In this document: positions 9,863 to 30,192 of the stretch, piece after piece
Layout: each line of letters opens with the position of its first letter
Numbering within the stretch: position 1 is the first letter of the stretch
Assembly: GCA_900551915.1 (NCBI GenBank)
Contig: URXT01000017.1
Location: 1-36,701, forward strand
DNA length: 36,701 nucleotides
Direction: 5' to 3'
DNA from: an uncultured bacterium
GTDB taxonomy: Bacteria; Cyanobacteriota; Vampirovibrionia; Gastranaerophilales; Gastranaerophilaceae
Translations under genes and position numbers: made by a program
The notes under the pieces: model-generated
What the model was told of the DNA's origin: nothing
Database searches by the model: none
Seen by the model: the letters and a program-made list of their open reading frames with translations, nothing else

Positions 9863-10075
9863 CTATCGATGTAAATCAATAAACTCAACTCTGTAGTCCA
9901 AAATTTTTGCAATTATCTCAGCTTCCTTCAAGGATAAACTTTCTCTGTTTAGTTTGCCGAGAAGACTATTATAGGAATAATTTTCAGATGTAACCTCTGA
10001 TAACATAATAGCAAGCTTTTTAAGAGTAACTCCACGTGAAGCTGTAAGCATCTTAATTTTTGTTTTAATACTCAT
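9863..10075 (-). CDS. Small helix-turn-helix-like regulator, divergent to a prepilin gene
   Basis: The 70-residue protein looks like a minimal XRE-like DNA-binding domain: TLKKLAIMLSE followed by YSYNSLLGKLNRESLSLKEAEIIAKIL, matching helices 2-5 of the Cro/C1 fold. I see no other domain. There is no Shine-Dalgarno; a TATAAT (minus strand, 10087-10082) lies six bases before the ATG, predicting a leaderless mRNA. The promoter region is shared with the divergent prepilin gene at 10196 and contains a long dyad, so autoregulation and control of the prepilin are the natural inference. Confidence 0.72.
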   Translation of the reverse strand: MSIKTKIKMLTASRGVTLKKLAIMLSEVTSENYSYNSLLGKLNRESLSLKEAEIIAKILDYRVEFIDLHR

Positions 10076-10081
10076 ACAAAA

Positions 10082-10162
10082 ATTATAGCGATATTGACAT
10101 TATATAAAAAACTACATATAATAATATTCGAATATGAATACTATTAATCATATTCAAATATT
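10082..10162 (+). promoter_or_regulatory. Divergent promoter region with twin palindromic operators (10196 prepilin)
   Basis: On the plus strand, TTGACA (10094-10099) and TATAAT (10117-10122) are 17 bases apart, a perfect consensus promoter. Directly downstream lie ATATTCGAATAT (10124-10135, perfect palindrome) and ATATTCAAATAT (10150-10161, one mismatch), which also form a 15-bp inverted repeat with each other (10123-10137 against 10148-10162). The sites cover the predicted transcription start. The divergent regulator's -10 lies at 10082-10087. Confidence 0.75.
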
Positions 10163-10195
10163 AGCATTTACATTTGAACAAAAAGGAGCAGACAG

Positions 10196-10885
10196 ATGAG
10201 AAACAGCCAGAAAAACTATAAAGCTTTTACTTTATCCGAAGTAATGATAACACTGGGGATACTTGGGGTAGTAATAGCCATGACGCTTCCGGTACTTATG
10301 AGCAAGTACAGAAAGCAGGAAGTATCAGCCCGTTTGAAGAAGTTCTACACAATCATGAACCAGGCAATCATGATGAGCGAACTCGAAAACGGAGATATTA
10401 AATACTGGGAGATTGAGGCAGCCTATACTACTGACGACGGGTCTTACGATTACAATGTTGGAGGGGAAAATTGTAACAAATTTTTCAACAGATATCTGGC
10501 TAAATACATCAAATACTACAAACTTACTCAGGGCTACTCTAAAGAAAACGATGATGGTACAACTTCCAGTGAATTGTCTAAAATTTACTTCTTCGATGGC
10601 TCAACTTCAACTATCAAACAGGGAACCTGTATTGATTTTGGTTTTGATATAAATGGAGATAAGAAACCTAATAAGAATGGTGAAGATAAATTCTATTTTT
10701 TTATCTGTCCGCATGACAAAGGTTATAGACTATACGCAACCGAAAGATTTTCGACAATAGGCCAGAGGACAATAAATACCCATGAAAAAGCTATGGAAGC
10801 TTGTAAAAATAGTAGAGGCTCCTGTTCACGGCTAATACAGATAGACGGGTGGGAAATTAAAAAGGATTATCCTTACAAAATTTAA
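10196..10885 (+). CDS. Prepilin-like protein (type IV pilin / pseudopilin N-terminus)
   Basis: Residues 1-10 are a short basic leader ending in Ala, followed by FTLSEVMITLGILGVVIAM, the prepilin peptidase site plus hydrophobic assembly helix; cleavage is predicted before Phe11 with Glu at +5. The globular part has KFYTIMNQAIMMSE, the shared DIKYW motif, DINGDKKPNKNGEDKF (a possible metal-binding loop) and the C-terminal signature CSRLIQIDGWEIKKDYPY. Length is 229 residues. AAAGGAG precedes the ATG. It faces the small regulator at 9863-10075. The exact machine (type IV pilus or type II secretion) is unknown. Confidence 0.9.
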   Translation: MRNSQKNYKAFTLSEVMITLGILGVVIAMTLPVLMSKYRKQEVSARLKKFYTIMNQAIMMSELENGDIKYWEIEAAYTTDDGSYDYNVGGENCNKFFNRYLAKYIKYYKLTQGYSKENDDGTTSSELSKIYFFDGSTSTIKQGTCIDFGFDINGDKKPNKNGEDKFYFFICPHDKGYRLYATERFSTIGQRTINTHEKAMEACKNSRGSCSRLIQIDGWEIKKDYPYKI

Positions 10886-10948
10886 CTTCAATGTTGAAAA
10901 ACTCTTTAAAACTTGTTATCATAATGAATAAGTTAGAAAGGGACTGTG

Positions 10949-11095
10949 ATGACTTTGGAAATAAAAGAAATTACAAACTTTTTTGAAGATGGCAAAAATA
11001 AAACAAAACTCGTTTTCTGCGAAGATAATAACGAAAAAAAAGAAATTTTGTTTGAAGGCGAAGGCAAACTCAAGTCAGCCGTTGCCGAGCTTTGA
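10949..11095 (+). CDS. Small acidic/lysine-rich protein, 48 residues, unknown
   Basis: The ORF begins MTLEIKEITNFFEDGKNK and ends SAVAEL. AAAGG lies six bases before the ATG; an in-frame GTG sits directly in front of the ATG and could also be used. It follows the prepilin gene by 63 bases and ends three bases before the convergent 11099-12160 gene. No motif is recognised. Codon use resembles its neighbours and the frame is bounded by good signals, so it is probably real but not certain. Confidence 0.55.
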   Translation: MTLEIKEITNFFEDGKNKTKLVFCEDNNEKKEILFEGEGKLKSAVAEL

Positions 11096-11098
11096 TTT

Positions 11099-12160
11099 TT
11101 AATTAGAAAAAGGAAGCTCAAGCGGAGCTAATGATTCAGAAGGGATTTCTGCAGGTGTATAAGCCGGATAAGTTGACTTCAGAACTTCTTCTAAGTGTTC
11201 GGCAGATGTTGAATGGTTAATCCGTTGGTCTTCAATATTTTTGGGTGCTACAGATTTATTCATTTGAGGTTCGGAACTCTGTTGCTTCTTGATTTCGTTG
11301 CCGGTTTCCTGTATTTGGTCTTCTGCTTGCGGAACAGGCTTTTGAATTTTGTCAAGCTCTTCCGGTACCTGTTTTGAAGGTTCAGAAACTGAATTGTCTG
11401 CAGGTTTTTCAGGTAAAGGCTCTTTTATTTCCGTTTGCACATTTTCAGCCGGTTCTTGAATTGTTTCTGTTTCAGCAGCAGAAGCATTATCCGTAGAATT
11501 TACAGGTTTGATTGAATCCTTTGAGTCGTCCGAAACAGCGTTTTCTCCAGATTTGTCCTGCTCTGTATATTCGTAATTAGGTTCATCTTTTTCATCTTTT
11601 AGTTTAAAATTCAGAATAAAAACCTGGTCTTTTTTTATGACAATATCTTCCCCTTTTTCAACATAAGAAATTGGAGTGCTTTCATAAAGCGAAATTGCCC
11701 CGGATTTAAACCGATTACCTTCTTCATTTTTAATAGCGCCTTCAACCGCAGCGTATGCAGAGGAAAGACCTTTTACAAAATAACTTCCCACGCCCAAAGC
11801 TGCCGATTTAGCCGCGCTTTTGTAGTCGAATTTAGTTGTAAACTTACCTTTGACAAGCGAATCCACCTTATGTGTTTCACCGTTGTTGTCAGTATACTCT
11901 TTCAAAATAAATGCAAAAGAAGCATCGCGTTTCAGGCGTTTTGGACTTGAAACGTCAACGATATCGCCTTTTAAGATATACCCTTCATTTATAATTAGAA
12001 ATCCGTCATCAAGAATTAAGTCGGTAACAGCCTTCACAGTAAGAGTTTCCGATGGGTTTTCTGTTGTAAAATCCGACTGTGATTGAACTTTAATAGTTGC
12101 CGCCAAAACTGACGCCTGACACATAAATAACAAAATCAAAGATAAAATAAATTTTTTCAT
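11099..12160 (-). CDS. Exported protein of unknown function with disordered C-terminal half
   Basis: A signal peptide is clear: MKKFILSLILLFMCQASVLA, with cleavage after ALA. Residues about 25-190 look structured, with beta-rich stretches (LILDDGFLIINEGYILKGDI, VFILNFKLK) and a Gly/Ala-rich segment AAKSAALGVGSYFVKGLSS. Residues about 200-353 are E/P/Q/S-rich and probably disordered. A GAGGA ribosome site precedes the ATG. Its start is 42 bases beyond the uvrA stop, so it may be co-transcribed with uvrA. No family is recognised. Confidence 0.8.
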   Translation of the reverse strand: MKKFILSLILLFMCQASVLAATIKVQSQSDFTTENPSETLTVKAVTDLILDDGFLIINEGYILKGDIVDVSSPKRLKRDASFAFILKEYTDNNGETHKVDSLVKGKFTTKFDYKSAAKSAALGVGSYFVKGLSSAYAAVEGAIKNEEGNRFKSGAISLYESTPISYVEKGEDIVIKKDQVFILNFKLKDEKDEPNYEYTEQDKSGENAVSDDSKDSIKPVNSTDNASAAETETIQEPAENVQTEIKEPLPEKPADNSVSEPSKQVPEELDKIQKPVPQAEDQIQETGNEIKKQQSSEPQMNKSVAPKNIEDQRINHSTSAEHLEEVLKSTYPAYTPAEIPSESLAPLELPFSN

Positions 12161-12202
12161 ACCATCCTCACAAAATTATTAAATCATTATTTTTCAAAAG
12201 TG

Positions 12203-15046
12203 TCAAGAAAATAACGGTTTAAGGTACTGGCCAGTGTAAGATTTTTTAACCTTTGAAACCTGCTTTGGCGTTCCGGCTGCAACGATTTGTCCGCCGCCAT
12301 TTCCGCCTTCGGGGCCAAGGTCTATTATGTAATCTGCTACTTTAATCAGGTCAAGATTGTGTTCAATGATTAAAATCGTATTTCCCTGGTCAGCAAGCGC
12401 CTGAATAATTTTAATAAGTTTATCCAAATCCGCCCAGTGAAGCCCGACAGAAGGCTCATCCATAAGATAAAGTGTTTTGCCGGTTGCACGCTTGTTAAGT
12501 TCTGACGCAAGCTTAATTCGCTGCGCTTCGCCGCCCGAAAGCGTTGTTGCACTTTGACCAAGCTTGATATAATCAAGTCCGACATCGTTTAAGGTTTGAA
12601 GTTTGTTTTTGATTGACGGAACATTTTCAAAAAACGCCAGCGCTTCTTTTACGCTCATATCAAGCACATCAGCAATTGTCTTGCCTTTGTATTTAACCTC
12701 TAAAGTTTCGCGGTTGTAGCGTTTGCCTTTGCAAATCGGACATTTCACATAAACATCTGATAAGAAGTTCATTTCAATTTTGTTTACGCCGTCTCCCTTG
12801 CAAGCCTCGCATCGCCCGCCTTTTACGTTAAAGCTGAAGCGTCCGGCTTTGTAACCGCGAAGTTTTGCCTCATTGGTTTTCGCATACAAATCACGAATAT
12901 GCGTAAACAAATCCGTGTAAGTTGCAGGGTTTGAACGCGGAGTTCTGCCGATTGGCGATTGGTCAATGTCAATAATCTTGTCTATGTTTTCAAATCCTGT
13001 AATCTCATCAACGCCCTGCGGTTTCGGTTTGTTTTTGCGAAGTTTATGAACTGCATATTCATAAATCAATTCCTGCATCAAGGTTGATTTGCCAGACCCT
13101 GAAACGCCGGTTAAAACAACGATTTTACCGAGCGGAATCTCGACATTTATATTTTTCAAATTGTTCAAATGCGCGTTTTTAACGCTTAAGAAATTCCCGT
13201 TGCCCTCGCGGATTTTGTCAGGAATAGGAATAACCTTTTCGCCGCTTAAATATTTACCTGTAATCGACCTTTCAGCCGCAATTATATCGTCAATTGTGCC
13301 GGAAGCAATGACTTCGCCGCCCAAAACGCCAGCCCGCGGCCCGATATCAACCAGATAATCCGCATTTCTGATAGTTTCTTCGTCGTGTTCAACAACAATC
13401 AATGTATTTCCAAGGTTGCGAAGTTTGATAAGGGTTTTAATCAATCTGTCGTTATCGCGCTGGTGAAGCCCGATTGAGGGTTCATCCAAAACATACAAAA
13501 CTCCTGAAAGCCCGCTTCCGATTTGGGTTGCAAGTCTGATACGCTGTGCTTCGCCGCCGGAAAGTGTTCCTGCCATACGCGAAAGGTTCAGATAACTTAA
13601 CCCTACATCTTTCAAGAATTTTAAACGCGCACGAATTTCATCTAAAATCTGTTTTGCTATTTGAATATGATATTCGCTCAGCTCCAAATACAAATCCGAT
13701 ATAAAGTCATACTCTTCATTAATCGGCATCAGCGTAAATTCATAAATATTTTTACCTTTAATCGTCACTGCGAGCGGAAACGGTTTTAATCTTGCGCCCT
13801 TGCAGGATTTACACGGAGTCATGACCATGTATTTTTCGATTTCCTCGCGCCAGTAATCCGCATCAGACTCATGATATTTTTTCATCAGGTACGGAATAAC
13901 GCCCGGATAGCTGTGATAACGGGTTTCGTAACGTTTTGACGCGAAACCTTTTATTTTCATTTTGATAATATCCGGCGAACCGTAAAGAATAATATTTTGA
14001 TGCTCTTTTGGCAAATCTTCAAATGGCGTATCAGGGTTTATGCCGAAATTTGAACACACTGCAGCGAGCATGTCTTTGTAATATGAAGTTGAAGACTTAT
14101 CCCATGGATAAATTGCGCCGTCATTAATTGATTTTGTGCGGTCTGGCACGACTAAATCCGGAGAAATTTCGTAATCCACGCCGATTCCGGAGCATCTTTC
14201 GCACGCGCCGTAAGGATTGTTAAATGAAAAAATCCGCGGAGCAAGTTCTTCAAAGCTGATATTACAATTCGGGCAGGCAAGTTTTTCACTGAAAATAATT
14301 TCCTGATTTTTGCCTTCGGCAGATTTTCCGACAACCTCGGCAATTGCAATTCCGTCAGCTTTATGCAAAGCAATTCCAACGCTGTCTGCAATTCTTGACT
14401 GCGCCTCTGGTTTCACAACAATTCTGTCAACCACGACCGAAATATCATGTTTTTTTGTTTTTGCAAGTTCAATTTCGTCTTCGTCAAGGTTATAAATTTC
14501 ACCATCGACTTTTACGCGCACAAAGCCTTCCTGACGAAGTTCTTCAAAAAGCGACTGATATTCACCTTTTTTGCCGCGGATAATCGGTGCTAAAATCTGA
14601 ATTTTTGTACCCTCGCCAAGCTTCATAATGCTTGTTACGATTTCATCAATCGTCTGCGGCCTAATTTCCTCGCCGCACTGAGGGCAATGAGGCGTTCCGA
14701 CACGTGCGTAAAGAAGCCTCAAATAATCATAAATTTCCGTAACAGTTCCGACAGTTGAACGCGGGTTGTTGCTTGTGGATTTCTGGTCAATTGAGATTGC
14801 CGGCGAAAGCCCGTCAATATATTCAACATCGGGTTTATCCATCTGTCCCAAAAATTGGCGTGCGTAAGTGGAAAGGCTTTCGATATAACGTCTTTGGCCT
14901 TCAGCGAAAATCGTATCAAAAGCAAGCGAACTTTTGCCGGAACCTGAAACCCCTGTAAATACAACGAGTTCGTTCTTCGGAATTTCCAGCGAAACATCCT
15001 TTAAGTTATGCTCTTTTGCCCCTTTTATTTTAATCGTGTCTGACAT
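12203..15046 (-). CDS. uvrA: Excinuclease ABC subunit A
   Basis: UvrA recognises bulky DNA damage and loads UvrB in nucleotide excision repair. The 947 residues are full length. Two ABC ATPase halves are visible: Walker [10 protein letters not shown] at 32-40 and GVSGSGKST in the second half, each with an LSGGEAQRI signature. The zinc-binding CPQC, CPNC/CERC, CKSC and CEAC/CPIC pairs are all in place. There is no Shine-Dalgarno; the ATG follows a -10 hexamer by six bases, predicting a leaderless transcript. Confidence 0.98.
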
Positions 15047-15052
15047 AATTAT

Positions 15053-15080
15053 ATTTTACATCAAGAAAAAAGCCTGACAA
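15053..15080 (-). promoter_or_regulatory. uvrA promoter predicting a leaderless mRNA
   Basis: On the minus strand, TTGTCA (15080-15075) and TAAAAT (15058-15053) are 16 bases apart. The -10 ends six bases before the uvrA ATG, so transcription should start at or beside the start codon. Confidence 0.6.
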
Positions 15081-15084
15081 GAAA

Positions 15085-15303
15085 TTACTTATGCCAGATT
15101 GTATTTAATTCAATGTCAAGCACAGAACAGATTTTTATGACAATAACAATTGTAGGATTAGCTTTTCGATTTTCAATCATATTCAAATATTTTGTTGATA
15201 TATCGACCATTTCTGCAAGTTTTTCCTGGGAAAGACGTTGCTGAAGACGCGCAAGCCTGATATTATCGGAAACCTTATCCAAAATCATTTTATCATCATT
15301 CAT
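15085..15303 (-). CDS. XRE/Cro-C1 family transcriptional regulator, divergent to a prepilin gene
   Basis: The 72-residue protein is a single HTH domain: IRLARLQQRLSQEKLAEMVDISTKYLNMIENRKANPTI is a textbook Cro/C1 helix-turn-helix, ending in the usual LDIELN. There is no effector domain. The ATG at 15303 lacks a Shine-Dalgarno and lies six bases after a TAGAAT hexamer. It is divergent from the prepilin gene at 15394 and shares the 90-base control region, which has an 8-bp inverted repeat over the prepilin -10. Repression of that gene and of itself is inferred. Confidence 0.9.
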   Translation of the reverse strand: MNDDKMILDKVSDNIRLARLQQRLSQEKLAEMVDISTKYLNMIENRKANPTIVIVIKICSVLDIELNTIWHK

Positions 15304-15321
15304 AGCTATATTCTACATAGG

Positions 15322-15367
15322 TTGACAAACAAAAAATATCTACTATAATTCATAATATAGAATTATA
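15322..15367 (+). promoter_or_regulatory. Promoter and operator of the 15394 prepilin gene
   Basis: TTGACA (15322-15327) and TATAAT (15344-15349) are 16 bases apart. The perfect inverted repeat TATAATTC (15344-15351) / GAATTATA (15360-15367), with an 8-base spacer, overlaps the -10 and the predicted start site, where a repressor would block transcription. Confidence 0.72.
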
Positions 15368-15393
15368 CTTCATGTTTATAGAAGGATATCTCA

Positions 15394-16116
15394 ATGAAAA
15401 AGAATTATAATGGATTTACGCTATCTGAAGTTCTAATTACTCTAGGTGTTATCGGGATAATTGCAGCAATGACACTGCCGGTCTTAATCGGAAACTACAA
15501 AAAGAAAGAAACCATCATAAAACTAAAAAAAATATACACTGTATTGAGTCAGCTTGTAATTTTATCACAGGAAGACAACGGCTCTGCAAACTTCTCCACC
15601 AAAGACACAGTCGATGCAAATACCGTGAAAAATTTCTTTGAAATCTACTGGCATCCTTACTTAAATGCACCTACAATCGCAAAAAATGGGGAATCATTTT
15701 ATCAATCAAATGGATTTGTTTATAAATATCTTAACGGAAATATCCGCGATATGGGCGTACAGACTTCATACGCCAATGGACGAATTTTATTTCAAACTTA
15801 TGACGGGACAATTTATTTTCTATGGATGATGGTATGGGAAACTATAAAAGATAATGATGGAAATATCATCTCCCAGACTGCCAAATATGATTCCAAACAA
15901 ACTGTATATGTCGACATAAACGGAACGAATAATCCGAACACTTTTGGCAAAGATATTTTTATTTTCGTAATAGATTTTGACAACAATAACGTCAAACCCT
16001 ACGGTTATAACACAAACAATATCAATGATCATTGCAACAAATCCAGTTCCGGTTTTTATTGTGCCGCAAAGATTATGGCAGACGGTTGGAAAATTAAAGA
16101 CGACTACCCGTGGTAA
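15394..16116 (+). CDS. Prepilin-like protein
   Basis: A seven-residue leader MKKNYNG is followed by FTLSEVLITLGVIGIIAAM, the prepilin cleavage site (Gly-Phe) and assembly helix. Downstream are KLKKIYTVLSQLV, VDINGTNNPNTFGKDIF (shared possible metal-binding loop) and the C-terminal CAAKIMADGWKIKDDYPW. The 240-residue protein lacks the DIKYW motif of its relatives. Its Gly at -1 is the canonical prepilin residue, whereas the other five copies in the window have Ala. A weak AAGGA ribosome site precedes the ATG. It converges with folP, leaving an 11-base gap. Confidence 0.9.
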   Translation: MKKNYNGFTLSEVLITLGVIGIIAAMTLPVLIGNYKKKETIIKLKKIYTVLSQLVILSQEDNGSANFSTKDTVDANTVKNFFEIYWHPYLNAPTIAKNGESFYQSNGFVYKYLNGNIRDMGVQTSYANGRILFQTYDGTIYFLWMMVWETIKDNDGNIISQTAKYDSKQTVYVDINGTNNPNTFGKDIFIFVIDFDNNNVKPYGYNTNNINDHCNKSSSGFYCAAKIMADGWKIKDDYPW

Positions 16117-16127
16117 ACAGGCAAAAC

Positions 16128-17267: not shown

Positions 17268-17305
17268 AAAATCAGTTTAGCAGAAAAAAAGATTTAATAA
17301 AGTTG

Positions 17306-17479
17306 TCAATCATCAAGTGCATCCTCGCGTTTTTTATCGCTTTTGGTAATTATGAGCTTGTCACGTTCAATTGTATATTCAACCATATCGGTTTTCGGGT
17401 TGACTTTCAAAAGGTCAAGAATTGTGGCATTAAGGCAAAGCGCCCACCCGTTACCGTTACGCATAAGTTTTCTATCCAT
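17306..17479 (-). CDS. AbrB/MazE-like small DNA-binding protein, divergent to a prepilin gene
   Basis: This 57-residue gene reads MDRKLMRNGNGWALCLNAT, then ILDLLKVNPKTDMVEYTI and ERDKLIITK. The pattern (basic strand, NG-G turn, ALCLN, helix ILDLL, then V-Y-I and L-I-I strands) is the swapped-hairpin SpoVT/AbrB fold found in AbrB regulators and MazE antitoxins. No toxin gene lies beside it, so a regulator is more likely than an antitoxin. AAGGA lies seven bases before the ATG. It is divergent from the prepilin gene at 17583 and upstream of folP on the same strand. Confidence 0.82.
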   Translation of the reverse strand: MDRKLMRNGNGWALCLNATILDLLKVNPKTDMVEYTIERDKLIITKSDKKREDALDD

Positions 17480-17499
17480 ACATTATCCTTACATTTGAC

Positions 17500-17564
17500 T
17501 TGACAATATCATATTAGATGTGCTATAAAGTTTCTAACATTACATTTAACCATTAAATGAATGT
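17500..17564 (+). promoter_or_regulatory. Promoter and operator-like dyad of the 17583 prepilin gene
   Basis: TTGACA (17500-17505) and TATAAA (17524-17529) are 18 bases apart. At and after the predicted start site lies CATTTAA-CCA-TTAAATG (17543-17559), flanked by ACATT (17537-17541) and AATGT (17560-17564), together a near-perfect dyad. Confidence 0.68.
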
Positions 17565-17582
17565 ACATAAGAAAGGAAGTTT

Positions 17583-18326
17583 ATGAGTACTGTTACAATA
17601 CAAAGGAAAAATTCTTATAGGTTAAGTATCAAAAAGAATAGCTGTAATATTTTGAGAAAGAAAAACCACAGCGCCTTCACATTGGCAGAAGTCCTTATAA
17701 CTCTCGGCATAATCGGAATTGTTGCGGCAATGACATTACCTTCAATAATTGAAAAACATCAAAAAATAGTTACAGCAAATAAGTTAAAAAAATTTTATAC
17801 AGTAATGGAACAAGCAATCATGCAGGAAGAAGTTCATAACGAAGATATTAAATACTGGCTTCCAACTGAAGATAATTTTGAAGATTGGTTTAATCTGCAT
17901 TTAGCGAAACACCTGCAAATAATCCACGCAAAAGCTCTGAGTGGTACAAAATACTATACAGTAGCATTGGCAGATGGTTCAGGATTTGTTGCATATAAAA
18001 CATCTTCAACCAGTTCATCCGCAACAGTCAACCGAATACACTTTTTTTACTGTACGGAGTTAAAATATTGTGGAAAGGAAAGATATGATGGCAGAACATC
18101 ATTTTTATTCTCAATATGCGGAGATGGCAGCTTTGTGACCTCGCTCTGTAATACTAAAAGCTTGACCCGCGAGGAATTCCTTGACAGTTGCGCAAAAGGT
18201 AATCATGATAACCCGGAAGTAAGCTCAAAAGATAAAAGACATGAATGTGCACGCCTTATACAATATGACGGGTGGGAAATAAAACCGGATTATCCCTGGA
18301 GGCAAATTATGCTTGAACAGAAGTAA
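17583..18326 (+). CDS. Prepilin-like protein with a longer leader
   Basis: A 33-residue basic leader ending HSA precedes FTLAEVLITLGIIGIVAAM. The body has KKFYTVMEQAIMQEE, the DIKYW motif, several Cys residues (FYC, KYC, CGDGSF) and the C-terminal CARLIQYDGWEIKPDYPW. It lacks the DINGxxxPN loop of the other copies. Length is 247 residues. AAAGGAAG precedes the ATG. It faces the AbrB/MazE-like gene, which is the likely specific regulator. Confidence 0.9.
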   Translation: MSTVTIQRKNSYRLSIKKNSCNILRKKNHSAFTLAEVLITLGIIGIVAAMTLPSIIEKHQKIVTANKLKKFYTVMEQAIMQEEVHNEDIKYWLPTEDNFEDWFNLHLAKHLQIIHAKALSGTKYYTVALADGSGFVAYKTSSTSSSATVNRIHFFYCTELKYCGKERYDGRTSFLFSICGDGSFVTSLCNTKSLTREEFLDSCAKGNHDNPEVSSKDKRHECARLIQYDGWEIKPDYPWRQIMLEQK

Positions 18327-22767: not shown

Positions 22768-22770
22768 AAG

Positions 22771-23019
22771 ATGTATATTTTTGAACTTTTAGTGAAATAT
22801 TTTCAAAAGAATAAAGTTGAAGATTTGATTGAAAAATACGAAGGCGAACGCGCCAAAGACCCTCTCTACGAAACCTTTAACACGGAAGATGACAGCGAAA
22901 CCTGCGAACATATTTTTCTTCCGATTGACAGCACAAAAGAAGTTTTTGCCTGTTCAAAGTGCGGTCTTGTGATTGACAGGAGAGCGTATGAAAAAAGGAA
23001 CTTTTTTAAAGATAAGTAA
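22771..23019 (+). CDS. Small putative zinc-binding protein downstream of cdd
   Basis: The 82-residue protein has an acidic N-terminal half and a CEH (C45, H47) plus CSKCG (C61, C64) set that could bind one zinc. It begins three bases after the cdd stop, without its own strong ribosome site, so it is probably translated by coupling. No family is recognised. Confidence 0.7.
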   Translation: MYIFELLVKYFQKNKVEDLIEKYEGERAKDPLYETFNTEDDSETCEHIFLPIDSTKEVFACSKCGLVIDRRAYEKRNFFKDK

Positions 23020-23090
23020 ATTCTGGCTGACAATGCGATAAATAGAGTCTTAAATTAGTGAATTAGCTCAATGTATCATAATCATGACTA

Positions 23091-23965
23091 TTATTTACTA
23101 CACTTACTTTTTCCGCTCCAGGATAAGTCACTACAATGGAGATAGTCCATATTTTCGTTCACAATGACCCATGCCGCGCATCTGCCAGGATATGCAGCAT
23201 CTATTTTTTTGCCTATACATAGGTCAAAAGAATCCACCCAAACTGTATCGTTAGCTTTACCAAAAGGCGTTATTCCATCTTTGTAAATACTGAATGCAAA
23301 CAAATCTCTATCACTAATATTTGGTCTGCCTACAGAATTCAAATCAACATATATACTGCCGCAATTACCAGTATATCTATTCATATGACGAGTATTTGCC
23401 AAAGAAGCAGCACACCACGTACTTCGATTACGATCGCCATTGATTGAACTTACCGCAACAGCAACTCCATTTGTCATTACAAATCCTAACCAATCAGAGC
23501 TAGGCTTCCACGTAGAGCTGGAATAACGATTTAAATACGACTTTGACAAACAAATATTTTTATCTTTAGAGAAATCATAGCAATCGCGAAGTTTTTTAAC
23601 ATAACGTCCAAGAATATTTGTCATTTTAACAGAACAATCATTATATGTCTCACTGCCGCCATTAATATTACACCAGTTTTCAACAGGTCCTTCTTCATTA
23701 ATAGCCTGTTCAAATGCCTGAGATAATAGAGAATAAGTTTGTTTAAGTTTATTTACAGTAACTTTCTCCTGATATCGGCCTACTAATGAAGGCAGTGTCA
23801 TTGCTGCAACAATTCCTATTACAGCAAGGGTTATCAACGTTTCTGCCAAAGTAAATGCAGGTTTAATAACATATTGACAAAGATTTATTTTCTTTGCCCT
23901 AAAGGAGCTTAATCTCGGGTGCCCCCCCCCCCGCAAAATGCAACAATATCAACAATTTTAGACAT
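23091..23965 (-). CDS. Prepilin-like protein, frame broken by an 11-base G tract (probably phase variable)
   Basis: The body is a normal prepilin: KPA then FTLAETLITLAVIGIVAAM, KLKQTYSLLSQAFEQ, DLNSVGRPNISDRDLFAF, and a Cys-rich C-terminus lacking the DGW-DYPW signature. The best start, ATG at 23965 with AAAGGAG five bases upstream, reads MSKIVDIVAFC and then enters the G11 tract (23932-23922). In that frame a stop follows about seven codons later, so the start and body are off by one base. G12 or G9 would restore one ORF of about 291 residues. The body frame alone is open only from a TTG at 23936 with no ribosome site. Confidence 0.85.
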
Positions 23966-23973
23966 ATCTGCTC

Positions 23974-24024
23974 CTTTCGTAACTGTTACAAAAGTATTTT
24001 AACAGATTGCAGGTTTTTATGCAA
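23974..24024 (-). promoter_or_regulatory. Promoter and dyad of the phase-variable prepilin gene
   Basis: On the minus strand, TTGCAT (24024-24019) and TAAAAT (24001-23996) are 17 bases apart. Downstream lies CTTTtGTAACaGTTACgAAAG (23994-23974), a 10-bp-arm inverted repeat with one mismatch that covers the predicted start site and touches the ribosome site. It could be an operator or an mRNA hairpin. Confidence 0.65.
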
Positions 24025-24029
24025 GAGAA

Positions 24030-25280
24030 TTATTTTTTGAGAGCTGTTGTTGACTCTTGTTGTATCATTTGTGAAAGAATTTTTTTAGCAGTTTCAAGTT
24101 GAATATCTTTTCTGTTTTTAACATCTTCTGCTGTAAGTTTAACTTCAATATCAGGCGAAATTCCTTTTTTATTTATGTCTGAACCGCTTGGAGTTAAATA
24201 TTTTGCAATTGTTAAATTTAGCCCGGTCTCGTTTGGAAGCGGCATTATTTTCTGAACCATGCCTTTGCCGAAGGTTTTTGTGCCCAGAAGTTTTGCGCGT
24301 TTGTAATCTTTAAGAGCGCCTGAGAGGATTTCGCTTGCGCTTGCTGAAGCTCCGTCAACAAGAACTATCATCGGCTTGTCGATTTCGAATTCAGTGTCTT
24401 GAGCGTAAATATCAAATCTGTAGTTGTCGCGGCCGACAATACTTACAATATTTCCGTCCGGAATAAACAGGTTTGCAATAAATATCGCATTCGGAAGAAG
24501 TCCGCCTGTGTTGCCGCGAAGGTCAAGAATAATGCCCTGGGTTTCTTTTGTTTTTTCTACCGCATCCATGAATTCATTCGGGGTTGAGGTGCCCAAAAAA
24601 CTTGAAATTTGAATATATCCGATATTTTTATCAACAGAACTTTTTACTGTTTTAATTTTGATTTCTTTACGCGAAACTTTCTTTATGAATTTGTCTTTAT
24701 TGCGCAGGATTGTAAGCTGAACAATTGTATTTTCAGGTCCTCTGACAAGATTCGCAACGTCTGAAAGCGGAAGTCCGTTTACTTCTTTGCCGTTGATATC
24801 AAGAATTATGTCGCCTGCCTGAAGGTTAGCAGCCTGAGCCGGTGTGCCGTCCATAACATTGATTATCTGGACTTTGCCGGAAACAGAAGCAATGTTTACA
24901 CCGATACCTGTAATTTTTGAATTTAAAGAGGTGTTTTGGTCGTTGTATTCAGCTTTGTCCATGTATCTTGAATAAGGGTCATCAAGACTTGCAAGCATTG
25001 TGTCTATTGCAACCTTTGCATCTTCATCGGTTTTAATTTTTCCGTGATAATGCTCTTTCCACCTGCTCCATGACTGACGGTTCATTGAAGGGTCATAATA
25101 ATTATTTTTTACGGCGCTCCAGACATTATCAAAAAGTTTTTGGCTCGAAACGTGCTCATGATTTACAAGTTCGCTTGTGTCAGTAATGGAGAAATTGCTA
25201 TTCACATTCATGACAAACTTGTTCAGAACAACTAAGCAAATAACCGTAATTATAAATAAAATGACCTGATTTCTTTTCAT
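24030..25280 (-). CDS. C-terminal processing protease (S41 family)
   Basis: Periplasmic CTP proteases cut proteins at the C-terminus. An N-terminal signal anchor (VILFIITVICLVVLNKFVM) is followed by a PDZ domain (ITGIGVNIASVSGKVQIINV, TPAQAANLQAGDIILDINGKEV). The protease core has FLGTSTPNEF, GIILDLRGNTGGLL, the nucleophile region GASASASEI and TFGKGMVQ. Numbered from the ATG at 25280, Ser314 and Lys339 form the catalytic pair with the usual 25-residue spacing. I chose the start MKRNQ at 25280: no Shine-Dalgarno is present and a TAAATA hexamer ends five bases upstream; a TTG at 25298 and ATG at 25295 are alternatives. Confidence 0.93.
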   Translation of the reverse strand: MKRNQVILFIITVICLVVLNKFVMNVNSNFSITDTSELVNHEHVSSQKLFDNVWSAVKNNYYDPSMNRQSWSRWKEHYHGKIKTDEDAKVAIDTMLASLDDPYSRYMDKAEYNDQNTSLNSKITGIGVNIASVSGKVQIINVMDGTPAQAANLQAGDIILDINGKEVNGLPLSDVANLVRGPENTIVQLTILRNKDKFIKKVSRKEIKIKTVKSSVDKNIGYIQISSFLGTSTPNEFMDAVEKTKETQGIILDLRGNTGGLLPNAIFIANLFIPDGNIVSIVGRDNYRFDIYAQDTEFEIDKPMIVLVDGASASASEILSGALKDYKRAKLLGTKTFGKGMVQKIMPLPNETGLNLTIAKYLTPSGSDINKKGISPDIEVKLTAEDVKNRKDIQLETAKKILSQMIQQESTTALKK

Positions 25281-25352
25281 ACGATTATTTAACATCAAGT
25301 CATTTTTTTAATCAATATACTTTATAATTAGTCGTATGAGATATTATAAAGT

Positions 25353-26039
25353 TTACAAATCTTCAAAGCCCGGAGAGGTTGCAGGAAGGCCTTTGTAACC
25401 TTCGTTTGACTGGACTGTTTTGCGTATATATTTGTTTGAATAGTTGCCCTTTTCAAAAAGTTTTTTTAATGTATTTTCGCGGTTCACCAGCGGGCTAAGA
25501 TTTTCGTTGCTTTCGGGATACATATCAAGGATTTCGCACCAGACAGAGGCCTCCATAGTCCAGGCGTAAGTTTCTTCTGCAATTGAGTTGTATTCATCCT
25601 GGTGAAGCGCTTCATGCGACAAAAGTGCGGCAATTGCGCCAGGAGGAGCGTCTTTGTGTTTCGGGTTGATAAATATATAGAGTCTTCCGCCTTTTTTCCA
25701 GCCTAATGCATCAAAATCCGCATAACCGGGATTTATTGTACTCAAATCCTTGAACATTACTCTGACCGGTTTTTGAGACAAGTTGCTCCCTAAAATTGCA
25801 CGTCTTGAAAATTCGCCGTTTGTATTTTTCAGCATATCAAGTGCAACATGAAAAATATGGTCTTCGCTTACATCTTTATAAAGCGGTTTTATTCTTTTTA
25901 CATATTCCGCATTATATTTTTCCGGATAATTCTGAGGGATTACAATCTCCTCTTTTTTACCGAAAGCATGTACCGGCACCGACATAGAAAGTGCTGTCAT
26001 CACCAGCATTAATTTCATAAATCTTCTTACATTCATCAT
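25353..26039 (-). CDS. Exported putative zinc metalloprotease with HEALH motif
   Basis: A signal peptide ends at VPVHA (residue 25). The motif HEALH at 142-146 is the HExxH zinc-binding signature, with Glu155/156 downstream in a helix, as in gluzincin-type or small zincin families. Around it, RLYIFINPKHKDAPPGAIAALL resembles the strand and helix preceding the motif in such proteins. The 228-residue length and lack of other domains leave the substrate unknown. It lies just upstream of the CTP protease on the same strand, 54 bases away. The ribosome site GGAGGAG is rather far from the ATG. Confidence 0.7.
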   Translation of the reverse strand: MMNVRRFMKLMLVMTALSMSVPVHAFGKKEEIVIPQNYPEKYNAEYVKRIKPLYKDVSEDHIFHVALDMLKNTNGEFSRRAILGSNLSQKPVRVMFKDLSTINPGYADFDALGWKKGGRLYIFINPKHKDAPPGAIAALLSHEALHQDEYNSIAEETYAWTMEASVWCEILDMYPESNENLSPLVNRENTLKKLFEKGNYSNKYIRKTVQSNEGYKGLPATSPGFEDL

Positions 26040-26132
26040 ATCCGCTATTCTCCTCCGAATTACTACATGCTTAACAGTATATACTATATATTTTTAAGGA
26101 CAAATTTTTTTTAATCAAATCGGATTTATTTG

Positions 26133-27704
26133 TTATGCTTTTCTGTTTAGCGCCGCAAGCTCTTTATAGATAAGTTTGTATTCTTCATTATTTTCATCAA
26201 GAGTTTCGGCTTCTTTGATGTATTCAAAAGCGTTTTTGCTGTCGCCTTTTTCTCTGTAAAGCCGGCTCATTTCAGCATAATATTTCGGATTGTTTATATC
26301 ATAAAAAATTGCGCGCTTCATGCATTCAAAAGCCTCATCAAAATCTCCTTCGGCCGCTCTTGCAAGAGAAAGATAACAGTAGCCTTCCGAACAATTTATA
26401 TCAAGCGCGATTGCATTTTGTGAAAACTCCTTTGTCCTCTCCAAATCACCCTTCAAATATGCAGCCTGGGCGCCAAGAAGACAGGCCTCCAAATAATTTT
26501 CATTTTCGTCTAAAATGTCATCAACCAAAGAAAGCGCTTTATCGTAATTCTTAGCTTTTATAAAAACTTTAGCAAAATCGCATCTGTATGCGAGGTTTTG
26601 CGGAAAGTCTTTGACTAAATCTTCAAGAATTTTTTCGGCTTTATCAAAAATCAAAAGCTCGGAATAGACTTTTGCCAGCGCGGACTTTGTGAAAACATCA
26701 TCGGGTGAGGTTTTCAAATTATCTTCAAGAATATTTTTTGCGCCGAGAAAATCCTTCTTCTCAAATTTCAGCAAAGCTTCAAGAACTCTTGTCTGCAAGT
26801 GTTCGGGGTTGTGTTCAAGAATAAAGCCCGCTTCTTTTTGCGCCTTTTCAAAATCCTTTTCTCTGTAATACAGATAACAAAGAGAATATCTGTAATCCGG
26901 ATTTTCAGGGTCAAGCCCGATTGCTTTTTTGTATGCGGAGGCGGCTTCTTCAAGCCAGCCGTTTAGAAAATATGCGTTTGCAAGATTGTAAAAATATACT
27001 GATTTATTTTTGTTAATTGAAGAGGCTTTTGAAAAATATTTCACAGCGTCTGTGAATTTTTCCTCTTCCATCGCAAAAAGCCCCAAATAATTCAAGACTT
27101 CATCGCTTTCAGTCACTCGTTCAAGCTTTTGGAAAATTTCGCGCGATTTTTGCATATCGTTTTTGTCAAAGTAAATTTTACCTTTAAGAATTTCCGCCTC
27201 ATCAAAATCACCGTTAATTCCGGTCAGAATTTCTAACGCTTTGTCTAAATTTCCGAGAGAATAACATGTGTTTGCGTATTCAATCAAAACATTTTCATCA
27301 ACCGGTTTTGCAGACATGTATTTTTCGATTTCGTCATAATGTTTTTGCAGGCCTAAAATCCGCACTAAATCAGCAAGACTTTTTGAGGAACCGTCAATTG
27401 CGTAGATTTTTTCAGCCATTGTTTTTGCGTCTTGCAGGTTATTTTCACGAATGAAAATCTCCTTCATAAGTCTGTAAGCTTCAATGTGAGAAGGATTTAT
27501 AGTCAAAACTTTTTCAAGATATTTTTTTGCGCGTACGTAATTGTGCAGCTGAAAATACAAATCTCCGAGTTGGTATAAAATTTCGATATTATCAACGTCA
27601 GCCTCAAGCGTTTTGTAAAGCATTTCAATAGCTTGCTTGTAACAGCCCTGCGCTTTTAATTCGAAAGCCTGTTTTATATAATCTAAAACTTCTCTATCCT
27701 GCAT
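26133..27704 (-). CDS. TPR-repeat protein
   Basis: The 523 residues are tetratricopeptide repeats almost throughout, for example AIEMLYKTLEADVDNIEILYQLGDLYF, YLEKVLTINPSHIEAYRLM and AYKKAIGLDPENPDYRYSLCYLYY. I estimate about fourteen repeats. No signal peptide, membrane segment or catalytic domain is visible, so it is probably a cytoplasmic scaffold or adaptor. GAGGAAAT precedes the ATG. The DivIC/FtsB-like gene ends 14 bases upstream on the same strand, suggesting co-transcription. Confidence 0.93.
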   Translation of the reverse strand: MQDREVLDYIKQAFELKAQGCYKQAIEMLYKTLEADVDNIEILYQLGDLYFQLHNYVRAKKYLEKVLTINPSHIEAYRLMKEIFIRENNLQDAKTMAEKIYAIDGSSKSLADLVRILGLQKHYDEIEKYMSAKPVDENVLIEYANTCYSLGNLDKALEILTGINGDFDEAEILKGKIYFDKNDMQKSREIFQKLERVTESDEVLNYLGLFAMEEEKFTDAVKYFSKASSINKNKSVYFYNLANAYFLNGWLEEAASAYKKAIGLDPENPDYRYSLCYLYYREKDFEKAQKEAGFILEHNPEHLQTRVLEALLKFEKKDFLGAKNILEDNLKTSPDDVFTKSALAKVYSELLIFDKAEKILEDLVKDFPQNLAYRCDFAKVFIKAKNYDKALSLVDDILDENENYLEACLLGAQAAYLKGDLERTKEFSQNAIALDINCSEGYCYLSLARAAEGDFDEAFECMKRAIFYDINNPKYYAEMSRLYREKGDSKNAFEYIKEAETLDENNEEYKLIYKELAALNRKA

Positions 27705-27718
27705 ATTTCCTCTGATTA

Positions 27719-28144
27719 TTATTTCTTTTTAGTTTTGCCGGTTTCTTTAGGCTCTTTGTTGATGATTACAAGAACTTCATCTTCACCGGCCATTTTAAGA
27801 TTATTTCTGGCAATGCCTTCCAGCGAGGCAGTTGTCGAAAACTGTTTGATATCATATTTTAAATCCTGATTACGCGCTTCAGCTTCATCGCGAACCTTTT
27901 CAAGCGTTTTGATTTTAGCTTTATATGAAATTGTTTTAGAAATATTCAAAATTGCACCAAACCCAACCTGAATAAGACAGAACAACAATACAAGAGTTAA
28001 AAATGAATAGTAAAAACCTTTTTTAACCTTTTGAACACGGCTTTTGTGCTTTAATTTTGCAGAGGCATCTTTTGGCTTTTGAACGTTTCCGCCTGCCGCC
28101 TGTTCGGAATTACTGTTCTGATTTTGTGTATAATCAGCCGTCAC
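27719..28144 (-). CDS. DivIC/FtsB-like septum formation protein
   Basis: Members of this family act in the divisome with FtsL and FtsQ. The 141-residue protein has a hydrophilic N-terminus, one membrane segment at about 44-66 (FYYSFLTLVLLFCLIQVGFG), a coiled-coil (KIKTLEKVRDEAEARNQDLKYDI) and the family C-terminal motif LEGIARNNLKMAGEDEVLVII. The start is GTG with GAGG five bases upstream. A short Lys-rich tail ends the protein. An FtsL-like gene is also in the window, at 33315, but not adjacent. Confidence 0.88.
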   Translation of the reverse strand: MTADYTQNQNSNSEQAAGGNVQKPKDASAKLKHKSRVQKVKKGFYYSFLTLVLLFCLIQVGFGAILNISKTISYKAKIKTLEKVRDEAEARNQDLKYDIKQFSTTASLEGIARNNLKMAGEDEVLVIINKEPKETGKTKKK

Positions 28145-28219
28145 ACATACCTCACTTATTTTAAGCTTGTTTATATTATAAACAAAATAAGCTTTGCAGA
28201 CAATAATGTTTTAATAAAT

Positions 28220-29086
28220 TTACAATTTAAATTTTGTAGTAAATTCCAACTGTGACCAAGAGTTACCTGAATTTACATCATAAGTATGTTTTGCACCGAG
28301 ATTAAAACGCATTCGGTCAACATCTTTTTTACCGAGTGGGTTAATCGATAGAACAAGCTCGCTTGAGCGTCTGTTACGCGTAATATCCGTTGAAAGAACA
28401 TCTTGAATAGCAAAAATATCATTGAATTTCAATTCTGGAATTACGCTGAAATTATCGGTTTGAATTTGAGTTACTGTCATATTGTTTTTTTTGTATTTTG
28501 AACTTAAAGAAAAGTATTTCTTTTCGTATTTCGCAAAAAGACTTGTTGTATTTTCAAGCTGAGTAAGATTTGTGGTTTCAGCATCAAACGAAGTTCCCAA
28601 AGACCAGTTACCATCCTTAAATACAATGTCTCTGCTAGCCGGTGAAACACTATATTCTTCGCCTTTGAACTTTGAAATTGAATATATATTTTTCATATCA
28701 GGAACGATTTTTTTAGTATCAGAAAACTGCTGTGAAGCCATTTGTTCAGGAGTTTTTATATTTAACACAAATTTAGTATGGTCGTCCATGTATAAAATAT
28801 CATCTGCACCTTCGGCATATTCCGCATAACCTTTAAGGGTGGTTGTCTTTAAAACAATCGGTTCTTTTTCAGGCATAAGCTCAATTACATCATCTTCTTT
28901 TGTTTCTTCATTTTTTTTAGATTTTTTTTCTTGGGTTTCAGTAGTGACAGCCCCGTCTTCATCCTCGGGGATTGCCCAGATAAAAATTTGAGGCAATTTA
29001 AGATCTTCGGCAGGCTTAACTTCTCCGGCAAAAACCGGCAGACCAAGAATTATCAAAAATGCCAACAAAAAACCTGCTCTTTTCAT
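28220..29086 (-). CDS. Exported, beta-strand-rich protein, likely outer membrane
   Basis: A signal peptide MKRAGFLLAFLIILGLPVFA is followed by an acidic linker (residues about 40-70). From about residue 140 alternating hydrophobic strands appear (WSLGTSFDAETTNL, TSLFAKYEKKYFSLSSKY, SSELVLSINPLGK, RMRFNLGAKHTYD), and the protein ends LEFTTKFKL with a C-terminal hydrophobic residue, typical of a small outer membrane beta-barrel. No family is recognised. The start region repeats the block found before the 22292 start and has no Shine-Dalgarno. Confidence 0.78.
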   Translation of the reverse strand: MKRAGFLLAFLIILGLPVFAGEVKPAEDLKLPQIFIWAIPEDEDGAVTTETQEKKSKKNEETKEDDVIELMPEKEPIVLKTTTLKGYAEYAEGADDILYMDDHTKFVLNIKTPEQMASQQFSDTKKIVPDMKNIYSISKFKGEEYSVSPASRDIVFKDGNWSLGTSFDAETTNLTQLENTTSLFAKYEKKYFSLSSKYKKNNMTVTQIQTDNFSVIPELKFNDIFAIQDVLSTDITRNRRSSELVLSINPLGKKDVDRMRFNLGAKHTYDVNSGNSWSQLEFTTKFKL

Positions 29087-29092
29087 AATTTT

Positions 29093-29120
29093 ATTGTACT
29101 CCTTTATAGAATACAGTCAA
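29093..29120 (-). promoter_or_regulatory. Promoter of the 28220-29086 gene, predicting a leaderless mRNA
   Basis: On the minus strand, TTGACT (29120-29115) and TACAAT (29098-29093) are 16 bases apart and the hexamer ends six bases before the ATG. An AAAGGAG lies between them but is 16 bases from the ATG, too far to act as a ribosome site. Confidence 0.62.
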
Positions 29121-29135
29121 ATTATTAAGATGCGG

Positions 29136-29312
29136 CTACTTCTCTTGAGAATCAAGATTTTCAAGTGCATACTCACAGCATTGCTTAACCAGATTATTTA
29201 GAGAAACACCCTGATTTTGCGCAACTGAATAAAGTTTTTCGACTAACTTTAAGGGCAGCCTGAAAGTTTTATTGACCATTTCTTCTTTTTCGACTTTAAA
29301 CATAATAAACAT
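29136..29312 (-). CDS. Ribbon-helix-helix regulator, divergent to a prepilin gene
   Basis: The gene reads MFIMFKVEKEEMVNKTFRLP, then LKLVEKLYSVAQNQGVSLNNLVKQ and CCEYALENL. The pattern NKTFRLPLKLVEKL-QGVSLNNLV is the Arc/MetJ/CopG ribbon-helix-helix fold (beta strand, then two helices). I chose the ATG at 29312 (58 residues), with a TATAAT five bases upstream and no ribosome site; the ATG at 29303 (55 residues) is also possible. The stop is TAG at 29136. It faces the prepilin gene at 29428 and should bind the AAGTG/CACTT sites between them. Confidence 0.8.
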   Translation of the reverse strand: MFIMFKVEKEEMVNKTFRLPLKLVEKLYSVAQNQGVSLNNLVKQCCEYALENLDSQEK

Positions 29313-29364
29313 TTTATATTATATTTCACCCATTATTAAACATTATATTTTTATATATAAAACT

Positions 29365-29408
29365 AAGTGCAAATTACACTTGATTTTATAAGTGCAAAAT
29401 GTTATATT
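29365..29408 (+). promoter_or_regulatory. Promoter and AAGTG operator sites of the 29428 prepilin gene
   Basis: TTGATT (29380-29385) and TATATT (29403-29408) are 17 bases apart. Three half-sites surround the -35: AAGTG (29365-29369), CACTT (29377-29381) and AAGTG (29390-29394). They form two inverted pairs, and AAGTGCAAA is directly repeated 25 bases apart, as expected for a ribbon-helix-helix repressor. Confidence 0.65.
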
Positions 29409-29427
29409 TTTATCCGAAGGAGAAAGT

Positions 29428-30192
29428 ATGAATATAAAAATAAAAAGCTTTACGCTTGCAGAAGGTGCTGCGCACGTAGAGAACTCTGGAAAAACTAGAA
29501 AAGGTGCGTTTACATTGGCTGAGGTGTTGATTACTTTAGGAATTATCGGAATTGTTGCAGCTATGACACTGCCAACAATAATAAACAACGCACGCGACAG
29601 ACAGTTTCGCGCAATGTTTAAAAAACAGTTTTCTATAATATCTCAGGCTTTTCAAATGGTTTATCTTGATGATGGCATAGAAATCGATTTTGAGGATTGG
29701 CGAGATATGACAACATATGTCTGCCAAATCGGACAAAAACTTAAAGCAGCCTATTCCGGGCTAAAATGCGACGAAATTTTGACAATGGTTCCGGATGATG
29801 CATTTGAAAATCATATAAACAAAAATGTATCATGGCACAAAAATAACACATGGTACAACGCGAAAAAACTGCCAATGGTAAGCAATTCCGGGTATTCATA
29901 CATGACATTCTATCTTCCGGATGGTGCCTGGATAAATTTTAACTGTTGGAGATACGTATTTGTTGATGTAAACGGCGCAAAAAATCCAAATACAGTAGGC
30001 CGTGATATCTTTTATTTTGTTTTGCCCAAAAGAACTTCTGCACTAAATTTTTTCGACTACACAACCGGCAAAACGTGGCCCAATGGCTGCCAAGGCGGGA
30101 TCTATTCAACAACACTAACCCCCGACAACTACGAAGATGACTGCAAAAACGGAACCGGCTGGGGATGTTCACCAATGTATATTTTGGATTAA
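29428..30192 (+). CDS. Prepilin-like protein with a doubled FTLAE leader motif and shortened C-terminus
   Basis: The ATG at 29428 has AAGGAG five bases upstream; a GTG at 29392 is in frame but unsupported. The 254-residue protein reads SFTLAEGAAHVENSGKTRKGA and then FTLAEVLITLGIIGIVAAM, so the first five residues of the mature motif occur twice, 24 residues apart. The second is the true cleavage site because only it is followed by the hydrophobic helix. It has DVNGAKNPNTVGRDIF but ends WGCSPMYILD, just where its relatives continue DGW...DYPW. The RHH gene faces it. Confidence 0.88.
   Translation: MNIKIKSFTLAEGAAHVENSGKTRKGAFTLAEVLITLGIIGIVAAMTLPTIINNARDRQFRAMFKKQFSIISQAFQMVYLDDGIEIDFEDWRDMTTYVCQIGQKLKAAYSGLKCDEILTMVPDDAFENHINKNVSWHKNNTWYNAKKLPMVSNSGYSYMTFYLPDGAWINFNCWRYVFVDVNGAKNPNTVGRDIFYFVLPKRTSALNFFDYTTGKTWPNGCQGGIYSTTLTPDNYEDDCKNGTGWGCSPMYILD

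Follow-up and report, generated by a model that had tools for sequence, protein, structure and literature searches.

In this study, we analysed the organization of type IV prepilin-like genes in a contig of 36,701 nucleotides from an uncultured bacterium of the Gastranaerophilales (URXT01000017.1, assembly GCA_900551915.1; its full length is hereafter called the window). Four prepilin genes lie on the plus strand and each is preceded by a divergently oriented gene for a DNA-binding-like protein of 57–72 residues, an arrangement already noticed in an initial annotation of this DNA (Table 1). All eight open reading frames were found where that annotation had placed them, and all were recovered by a coding-potential gene caller trained on related DNA, which was purpose-built and checked by eye on the window only. 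The prepilins carry the N-terminal motif with Glu+5 and a hydrophobic helix, and GspG/ComGE-like N-terminal matches were obtained below cut-off. Two further prepilins on the minus strand, with motifs at 23858 and 36482, had been overlooked: the former belongs, and the latter probably belongs, to a second class, in which a short leader runs into a G/C tract ahead of the prepilin. No small divergent regulator of the kind seen in the four plus-strand cassettes accompanies prepilin 23858. We refer to the regulator and the tract as the two putative locks of these cassettes.

Table 1. Prepilin genes and associated regulators, promoter sites and tract in the window; nt, nucleotide
Feature	Position	Strand	Basis or remark
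Regulator-like protein, 70 residues, lambda-repressor/XRE-like fold	9863..10075	-	model; no Pfam match above cut-off
Promoter TTGACA-17-TATAAT of prepilin 10196, then dyad with 16-nt arms	10094..10122	+	sequence; shuffles for dyad
Prepilin, 229 residues, regulator class	10196..10885	+	N_methyl and DUF6613 above cut-off
XRE regulator, 72 residues	15085..15303	-	HTH_3, E=3e-14 (Pfam)
Promoter TTGACA-16-TATAAT of prepilin 15394	15322..15349	+	region conserved with locus L075 despite different pilin and neighbours
Prepilin, 240 residues, regulator class	15394..16116	+	N_methyl above Pfam cut-off
MazE/AbrB-like protein, 57 residues	17306..17479	-	model; no Pfam match
Promoter TTGACA-18-TATAAA, TTACATTTRAC-like repeats around	17500..17529	+	repeats by eye; similar DNA in locus L050
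Prepilin, 247 residues, regulator class	17583..18326	+	N_methyl above Pfam cut-off
Prepilin reading frame, tract class, motif 23858, open back into tract	23091..23936	-	below Pfam N_methyl cut-off, above NCBIfam TIGR02532 cut-off
G11 tract on coding strand (C11 on +) behind leader ATG 23965(-)	23922..23932	-	leader and prepilin frames differ
Ribbon-helix-helix-like protein, 58 residues	29136..29312	-	HicB/Arc, E 0.001 to 0.03, below Pfam cut-offs
Promoter-like site TTGATT-17-TATATT	29380..29408	+	no better than shuffles
Prepilin, 254 residues, regulator class	29428..30192	+	N_methyl above Pfam cut-off
Sixth prepilin, motif 36482, frame open to window end	35781..36701	-	motif and alignment only

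The AlphaFold2 model of protein 9863 reached a pLDDT of 94, and in Foldseek searches POU domains ranked top, followed by DdrO, HipB and SinR, with probabilities mostly above 0.9 and a TMq of ~0.6–0.7 for the bacterial matches; no match reached an E-value of 1e-3. The model of protein 17306 (pLDDT 81) matched MazE/AbrB with a Foldseek probability of 1.0, a TMq of 0.62 and an E-value of 0.06, likewise with no match at 1e-3. PADLOC returned generic XRE matches for 15085 only.

Small divergent neighbours proved to be enriched beside tract-free prepilins in both samples of the survey that the initial annotation had proposed, with distance measured to the motif for prepilins (450 bp) and to the start for control genes (350 bp). 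Besides the window, the first sample took in 79 loci returned by a single scan (46 with a Candidatus Gastranaerophilales title, most of the others being from uncultured bacteria). It contained 146 prepilin motifs, of which 127 had enough upstream DNA; the other 19 were dropped because less than 800 bp lay upstream or because a called neighbour was lacking. Of 65 prepilins lacking an upstream G/C tract, 42 have a divergent neighbour no longer than 100 residues, as do 2 of 62 prepilins with a tract and 41 of 945 other genes. Since these loci had been picked by similarity to a regulator-class pilin, the count was repeated in four contiguous stretches, 1.7 Mb in total, of genomes G001, G003, G112 and G046, the first two reached through similarity-chosen loci and the other two through a separate genome-wide survey of prepilin candidates. 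With a neighbour limit of 120 residues, a motif broader than in the first count and in the tract listing of G001 and G003, and edge cases dropped, a small divergent neighbour was found at 23/37 tract-free prepilins, 7/84 tract prepilins and 83/1390 other genes (Fisher tests: tract-free versus control, p 2.6e-18; tract-free versus tract, p 1.3e-9; tract versus control, p 0.35). The tract-free prepilins with such a neighbour numbered 9/11 in G001, 8/11 in G112, 5/8 in G046 and 1/7 in G003. The 121 prepilins of these stretches therefore divide into 84 with an upstream tract, 23 without a tract and with a small divergent neighbour, and 14 with neither; as the 7 of 84 above indicate, the regulator lock and the tract lock are largely alternative.

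At least 17 of the 23 neighbours match an XRE-type helix-turn-helix model in Pfam (HTH_19 in 17, HTH_3 in 16), and the remainder include, by eye, two AbrB-like and some 9863-like proteins. The 82 control neighbours gave HTH_3 in 4, HTH_19 in 3 and other DNA-binding families such as HU, ArsR and RHH_1 in 2–3 each, and the seven neighbours of tract-class prepilins gave HTH_3 and HTH_19 in 1 each. The statement that each regulator is of a different type thus holds for the four of the window (XRE by Pfam for 15085, by model for 9863 and 17306, by matches below cut-off for 29136) and fails as a wider pattern, being mostly a feature of a sample of four: XRE-type proteins dominate, with HTH_3 in 39/54 in a further count. 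On the same counts, a rule by which every pilin has its own regulator type was ruled out.

The intergenic DNA of these cassettes was expected from the initial annotation to contain a sigma70-like promoter plus dyads in all four cases, and this stood in part. The promoters of 10196 (10094/10117) and 15394 (15322/15344) equal the consensus and were matched by 0 of 60 shuffles, that of 17583 (17500/17524) is near consensus with a shuffle p of 0.13, and the site before 29428 is no better than chance (p 0.48, promoter score 9); the dyad was borne out at 10196 only. Close to the last site, AAGTGNAAAT-like repeats were seen by eye, part of them common to locus L050 at the same position. Over a cassette set reduced from 54 to 53 by removal of one duplicate, perfect TTGACA/TATAAT pairs occur in 15/53 cassettes against 0/176 ordinary divergent promoters, and a promoter score of at least 10 is reached by 38/53 against 35/176, with the first 130 bp used for cassettes and intergenic regions of 70–250 bp between genes of at least 100 residues used as controls. 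Dyads at p 0.1 or better were found in 18/54 cassettes.

Promoter strength bears on the possibility that the divergent regulators activate the pilin genes or act as signal-responsive switches, which would make the pilins condition-specific instead of off by default. The sequence does not fix the sign of control, a point that speaks for such a role and against repression, and 15/53 cassettes score below 10, as does 29428. However, 38/53 promoters are near consensus and should therefore need no activator, and the regulators, at most 120 residues by definition and in many listed cases ~60–80, would consequently have little room for a ligand domain. We consider this alternative unlikely.

In Mantel tests over the 53 cassettes, intergenic DNA correlated with the regulator (r 0.25, p 0.0002) more strongly than with the pilin (r 0.11, p 0.002), and regulator and pilin were uncorrelated (r 0.03, p 0.29). 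A scenario in which regulator and pilin evolve as pairs was rejected on the latter value and on another test (r 0.06–0.07, p 0.06–0.11). The clean case is the XRE regulator 15085 and its 81% identical relative in locus L075, which share the core promoter while their pilins are only 34% identical and none of the four genes on each side is common to both. Judged by these comparisons, inheritance of the promoter region is tied more closely to the regulator than to the pilin.

This co-inheritance also bears on whether the small regulators control pilins at all, or whether they are instead passengers of the pilins, either antitoxin-like orphans or selfish genes that regulate themselves. XRE, AbrB and ribbon-helix-helix folds are common among antitoxins, antitoxin families are among the NCBIfam matches that 15085 and 29136 gave below cut-off, and locus L050 has an AbrB-like module that no pilin follows. 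Yet no co-directional toxin partner accompanies the regulators, the layout being divergent and the neighbour a prepilin, and strong pilin promoters together with promoter DNA that is co-inherited with the regulator fit control of that very promoter. We therefore regard the antitoxin-like explanation as quite improbable.

Comparison of the window with genome G112, which holds the most similar folP among the 383 genomes searched (80% identity; tsf 96%, uvrA 92%), allowed the places, or slots, of the cassettes to be followed. In the tsf–uvrA slot, the window carries a regulator and pilin 10196, whereas the 66% identical counterpart in G112 lacks a regulator and follows a G12 tract; a tract pilin occupies this slot in locus L023 too. 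Counterpart pilins in one slot, as aligned here, can thus carry different locks. The uvrA–folP slot contains an XRE regulator and a pilin in both genomes, but the regulators are 40% and the pilins 34% identical. Beside folP, identity between the two genomes is 95% for the AbrB-like protein and 60% for the pilin. Over 13 genomes, G112 and 12 others, the AbrB-like gene and a pilin occur together in the folP slot in 4 (one of these pilins was called in pieces), and both are missing in 9. Tract pilin 23858 is absent from the matching place in G112, as is, as a unit, the ribbon-helix-helix protein with its pilin (29136–30192). In locus L050 the slot of the latter is kept, with the regulator 75% and gltX 94% identical and the pilin match confined to 60 residues. 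Cassettes are, as far as these alignments reach, present or absent as units at slots. The proposal of separately controlled pilin cassettes made in the initial annotation thus gains support from the survey enrichment, from promoter DNA that tracks the regulator and from joint presence or absence at two slots.

The tract class has a layout of its own, in which a ribosome-binding site (RBS) and an ATG leader of usually ~6–12 codons are followed by ~10–13 G or C and then by the prepilin, and in which the leader frame, by eye, usually ends soon after the tract. We counted 78 G/C runs of at least 8 in 1.3 Mb, of which 67 have their nearest prepilin motif starting at most 632 bp downstream, in loci chosen by their prepilins. 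No stop interrupts the pilin frame between tract and motif in 58/67 cases and, at separations beyond 60 nt, in 40/49 against 1/98 alternative frames, while leader and pilin share a frame in just 6/63 and, in a larger set that includes 4 duplicates, in 9/120. Among loci picked solely for the leader pattern, with tracts followed by less than 900 nt dropped (3/29), a prepilin lies downstream of 18/26 tracts, 16/18 of them in open frame, and none lies downstream of the other 8. The leader–tract pattern is present in 73/146 genomes of the order, and its abundance correlates with the number of prepilin candidates (Spearman 0.72, 145 genomes); as overlapping matches inflate the counts, presence was used throughout and summed counts entered the rank correlation only.

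The pilin 23858 has a 98% identical relative in a Candidatus Gastranaerophilales bacterium. For the sixth prepilin, the last four positions of the window (36698–36701) read CCCC on the plus strand, that is GGGG on the coding strand upstream of its open frame, and it is probably a tract-class gene cut by the window end, so that the end of the contig at 36701 may fall in a tract. Locus L062 starts with G13, comparable to this end. After several tracts (for example at 23893–23980 of the window), a GCTCC-like stretch complementary to the RBS of the leader was seen by eye near the leader-frame stop, and the two could form a hairpin.

Tract length is nearly uniform within a genome. Over 120 tract pilins, a length of 10 with an offset of 2 occurs in 76 and a length of 11–13 with an offset of 1 in 23. 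In contig C1 of G001, 45/47 tracts are exactly 10 long and the leader-bearing pilins show length 10 and offset 2 in 32/32 cases, values shared by 15/16 leader-bearing pilins in C2 of G003. In C1 of G112, 16/16 leader-bearing pilins are at offset 1 and 15/20 tracts have length 12, and in C1 of G046 the length is 12 for 9 of 10 tracts.

Tract polarity follows the strand of the chromosome in most contigs: C stands on one strand in 47/47 tracts of G001:C1 irrespective of gene direction, all 10 tracts of G046:C1 lie on one strand, and G003 shows one change of polarity within C1, one within C2 (a single tract there) and none within C3 or C4. The rule is not absolute, with G112:C1 split 16 versus 4 and loci L042 and L043 mixed as well. 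In the first loci, the G strand carries positive GC skew for 65/74 tracts, and this association of tract polarity with chromosome strand and skew points to replication. An early idea, that the tract base follows gene direction, was dropped. At the slot of 23858, gene 3126(-) of L050 has the same gene direction and the opposite tract polarity, and the GC skew of the shared segment is -0.008 there against +0.073 in the window. By the narrower motif, 14/47 tracts of G001:C1 (L110–L129) lack a downstream prepilin; all lie on the same strand, several precede variant-motif prepilins (GYTLAE) and others lie in or near other open reading frames, one of which resembles a glycosyltransferase by eye.

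This uniformity is unlike free phase variation, and programmed frameshifting at the tract therefore stays a serious rival, in which the ribosome or RNA polymerase would slip at a set rate and supply a constant low level of pilin with no switching at the DNA level. The near-constant length and offset per genome and the early stop of the leader frame fit such a device. On the other hand, the required shift differs in sign between genomes, as the two length and offset combinations show, polarity by chromosome strand is not what an RNA-level device predicts, with G112:C1 excepted, and 9/120 tract pilins are already in frame. Among 120 relatives listed by a protein search, 8 match a leader, GGG or PPP and the pilin in one chain by regular expression, 11 start close to GGG or PPP, 3 have one further in and most (98) show neither. 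On balance, we give programmed frameshifting a minor share of the probability.

The family to which these cassettes belong is very large, with 153 prepilin matches in G001, 152 in G002, 110 in G003 and 108 in G004, where up to 150 candidates were scored per genome; in the wider genome survey, which scored at most 17 candidates per genome, family sizes of 4–255 refer to first-look candidates. The prepilins are mostly dispersed singletons outside any pil or gsp operon. G001, G003, G060 and G081 each gave one secretin and one prepilin peptidase match and also hold an assembly ATPase and PilC/GspF relatives. Not all genomes resemble the window. G081, with 159 first-look candidates, shows no tract pattern and has small divergent neighbours at 4/6 prepilins against 7/161 controls. 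G060, with 187 first-look candidates, gave 0 tract-pattern matches, and the six prepilins examined have long open leaders. By eye, five of these six (loci L150–L156) have in common an upstream module that carries GCACCAAA...TTTGGTGC palindromes of the GCACCAAATTTTATATTTTGGTGC type, a feature that suggests one shared regulator in place of private ones. An origin as phage cargo (moron) was rejected: a pattern scan of IMG/VR, which reaches motif-sharing relatives only, gave 2 weak relatives (29% and 43%), and a query with the exact leader of the window gave 0 matches in viral contigs. In the leader peptide at 29428–29540 of the window, and at ~432300–432430 of G112:C1, an additional FTLAEGAxHVE copy lies ahead of the true prepilin motif and looks, by eye, like a duplicated or moved leader segment.

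We propose a model in which each pilin cassette is held off by default by its own lock, either a private small repressor or a G/C tract, and we consider this the probable, if by no means assured, explanation. It builds on what the sequence itself contains, namely the layout, its enrichment, two largely exclusive classes, the reading frames, co-inheritance of promoter and regulator, the change of lock within a slot, and presence or absence of whole units. Each cassette stands alone among housekeeping genes and is usually preceded by a good promoter. In the regulator class, the divergent DNA-binding protein most likely targets the intergenic promoter region common to the two genes and represses the pilin as well as itself, until repression is relieved by chance or by some signal. 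In the tract class, the lock would be translational: the leader enters the tract usually out of frame with the pilin, and a change of one or two bases by replication slippage would fuse the two. Both locks would feed one pilus or secretion machine and may therefore limit the number of pilins competing for it. We infer repression, switching, this competition and surface exposure from the arrangement of the genes.

Several observations weigh against this model. The dyads of the window other than that of 10196, which beats all 60 shuffles, gave p values of 0.12, 0.45 and 0.52. Some pairs with similar regulators share a locus in related species (for example L005/L008, L031/L055 and 29136 of the window with L050), and shared ancestry therefore contributes to the Mantel result, while the regulators of L052 and L073, 77% identical at different loci, show no notable intergenic similarity. 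Regulator 17306 has a 79% identical relative in L050 with promoter DNA that is similar by eye and with no pilin behind it. In the four stretches, 14/37 tract-free prepilins (6 of them in G003) carry neither lock as defined, and neither was found at the six prepilins of G060. The near-uniform tract length is contrary to simple independent phase variation, no close ortholog pair with differing tract length was found with one genome compared per species, and assemblies are consensus sequences, which cannot reveal minority tract states.

As a more speculative extension, which we put forward tentatively and with less than even confidence, the family may form a slot-based repertoire of more than 100 mostly single-pilin cassettes per genome, with one export machine and two interchangeable private locks, in which the locks and not the pilins would be conserved and single cells would show different pilins. 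Pilins would be replaced behind locks and locks in front of pilins, the repressor would have an operator of its own, and the tract would be a strand-oriented element of set length specific to the genome.

Phase-variable surface families with simple-sequence-repeat contingency loci are known from Neisseria opa and pilC and from the poly-G genes of Campylobacter. The tract class resembles them in its homopolymer near the start of likely surface-protein genes, its out-of-frame state and its many members, while it differs in concerning a type IV prepilin-like family with more than 100 members in some genomes, in the polarity by chromosome strand in most contigs examined, in the genome-specific length mode and in the replacement of the tract by a private regulator in part of the family. 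Among divergent repressor–target pairs, those of the Cro/CI and SinR type are autoregulated switches, and the regulator class shares with them a small XRE-type protein, a strong divergent promoter and, in some cassettes, dyads. In contrast to such pairs, the arrangement recurs here across one family of paralogous pilins and involves several unrelated regulator folds, and different pilins stand behind similar regulators. The gonococcal, Moraxella and Pap switches concern one locus or a few and act by recombination, inversion or methylation, whereas here every pilin would have its own local control element. A review covers phase-variable surface families and, as examples of variable pilus-subunit expression, gonococcal pilin gene conversion, Moraxella pilin inversion and the Pap methylation switch (PMC11868660). 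With the pseudopilins of type IV pili and type II secretion, the family has in common the prepilin N-terminal motif and one secretin–ATPase–PilC locus in related genomes, and it departs from them in being far more numerous and mostly dispersed as singletons. A report on a termite-gut relative lists pilA, B, C, T and D (PMC5877343), and passages of two further papers gave no match for pilin or pili (PMC4040986, PMC3787301). No published description of the layout was found in a search that excluded most subscription papers and all bioRxiv preprints.

More than 100 pilin-like genes in some genomes, many of them behind a putative lock of their own, suggest a large and individually switchable set of surface fibres. 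If the model is correct, a little-studied gut lineage near the cyanobacteria would run a repertoire of individually gated pilins that ranks among the largest known to us, and it would offer a system for asking how one pilus machine picks among many subunits. The strand-oriented tracts of fixed length pose a separate puzzle on replication and homopolymer stability. The two locks would then constitute two independent answers to the same gating problem inside one gene family.

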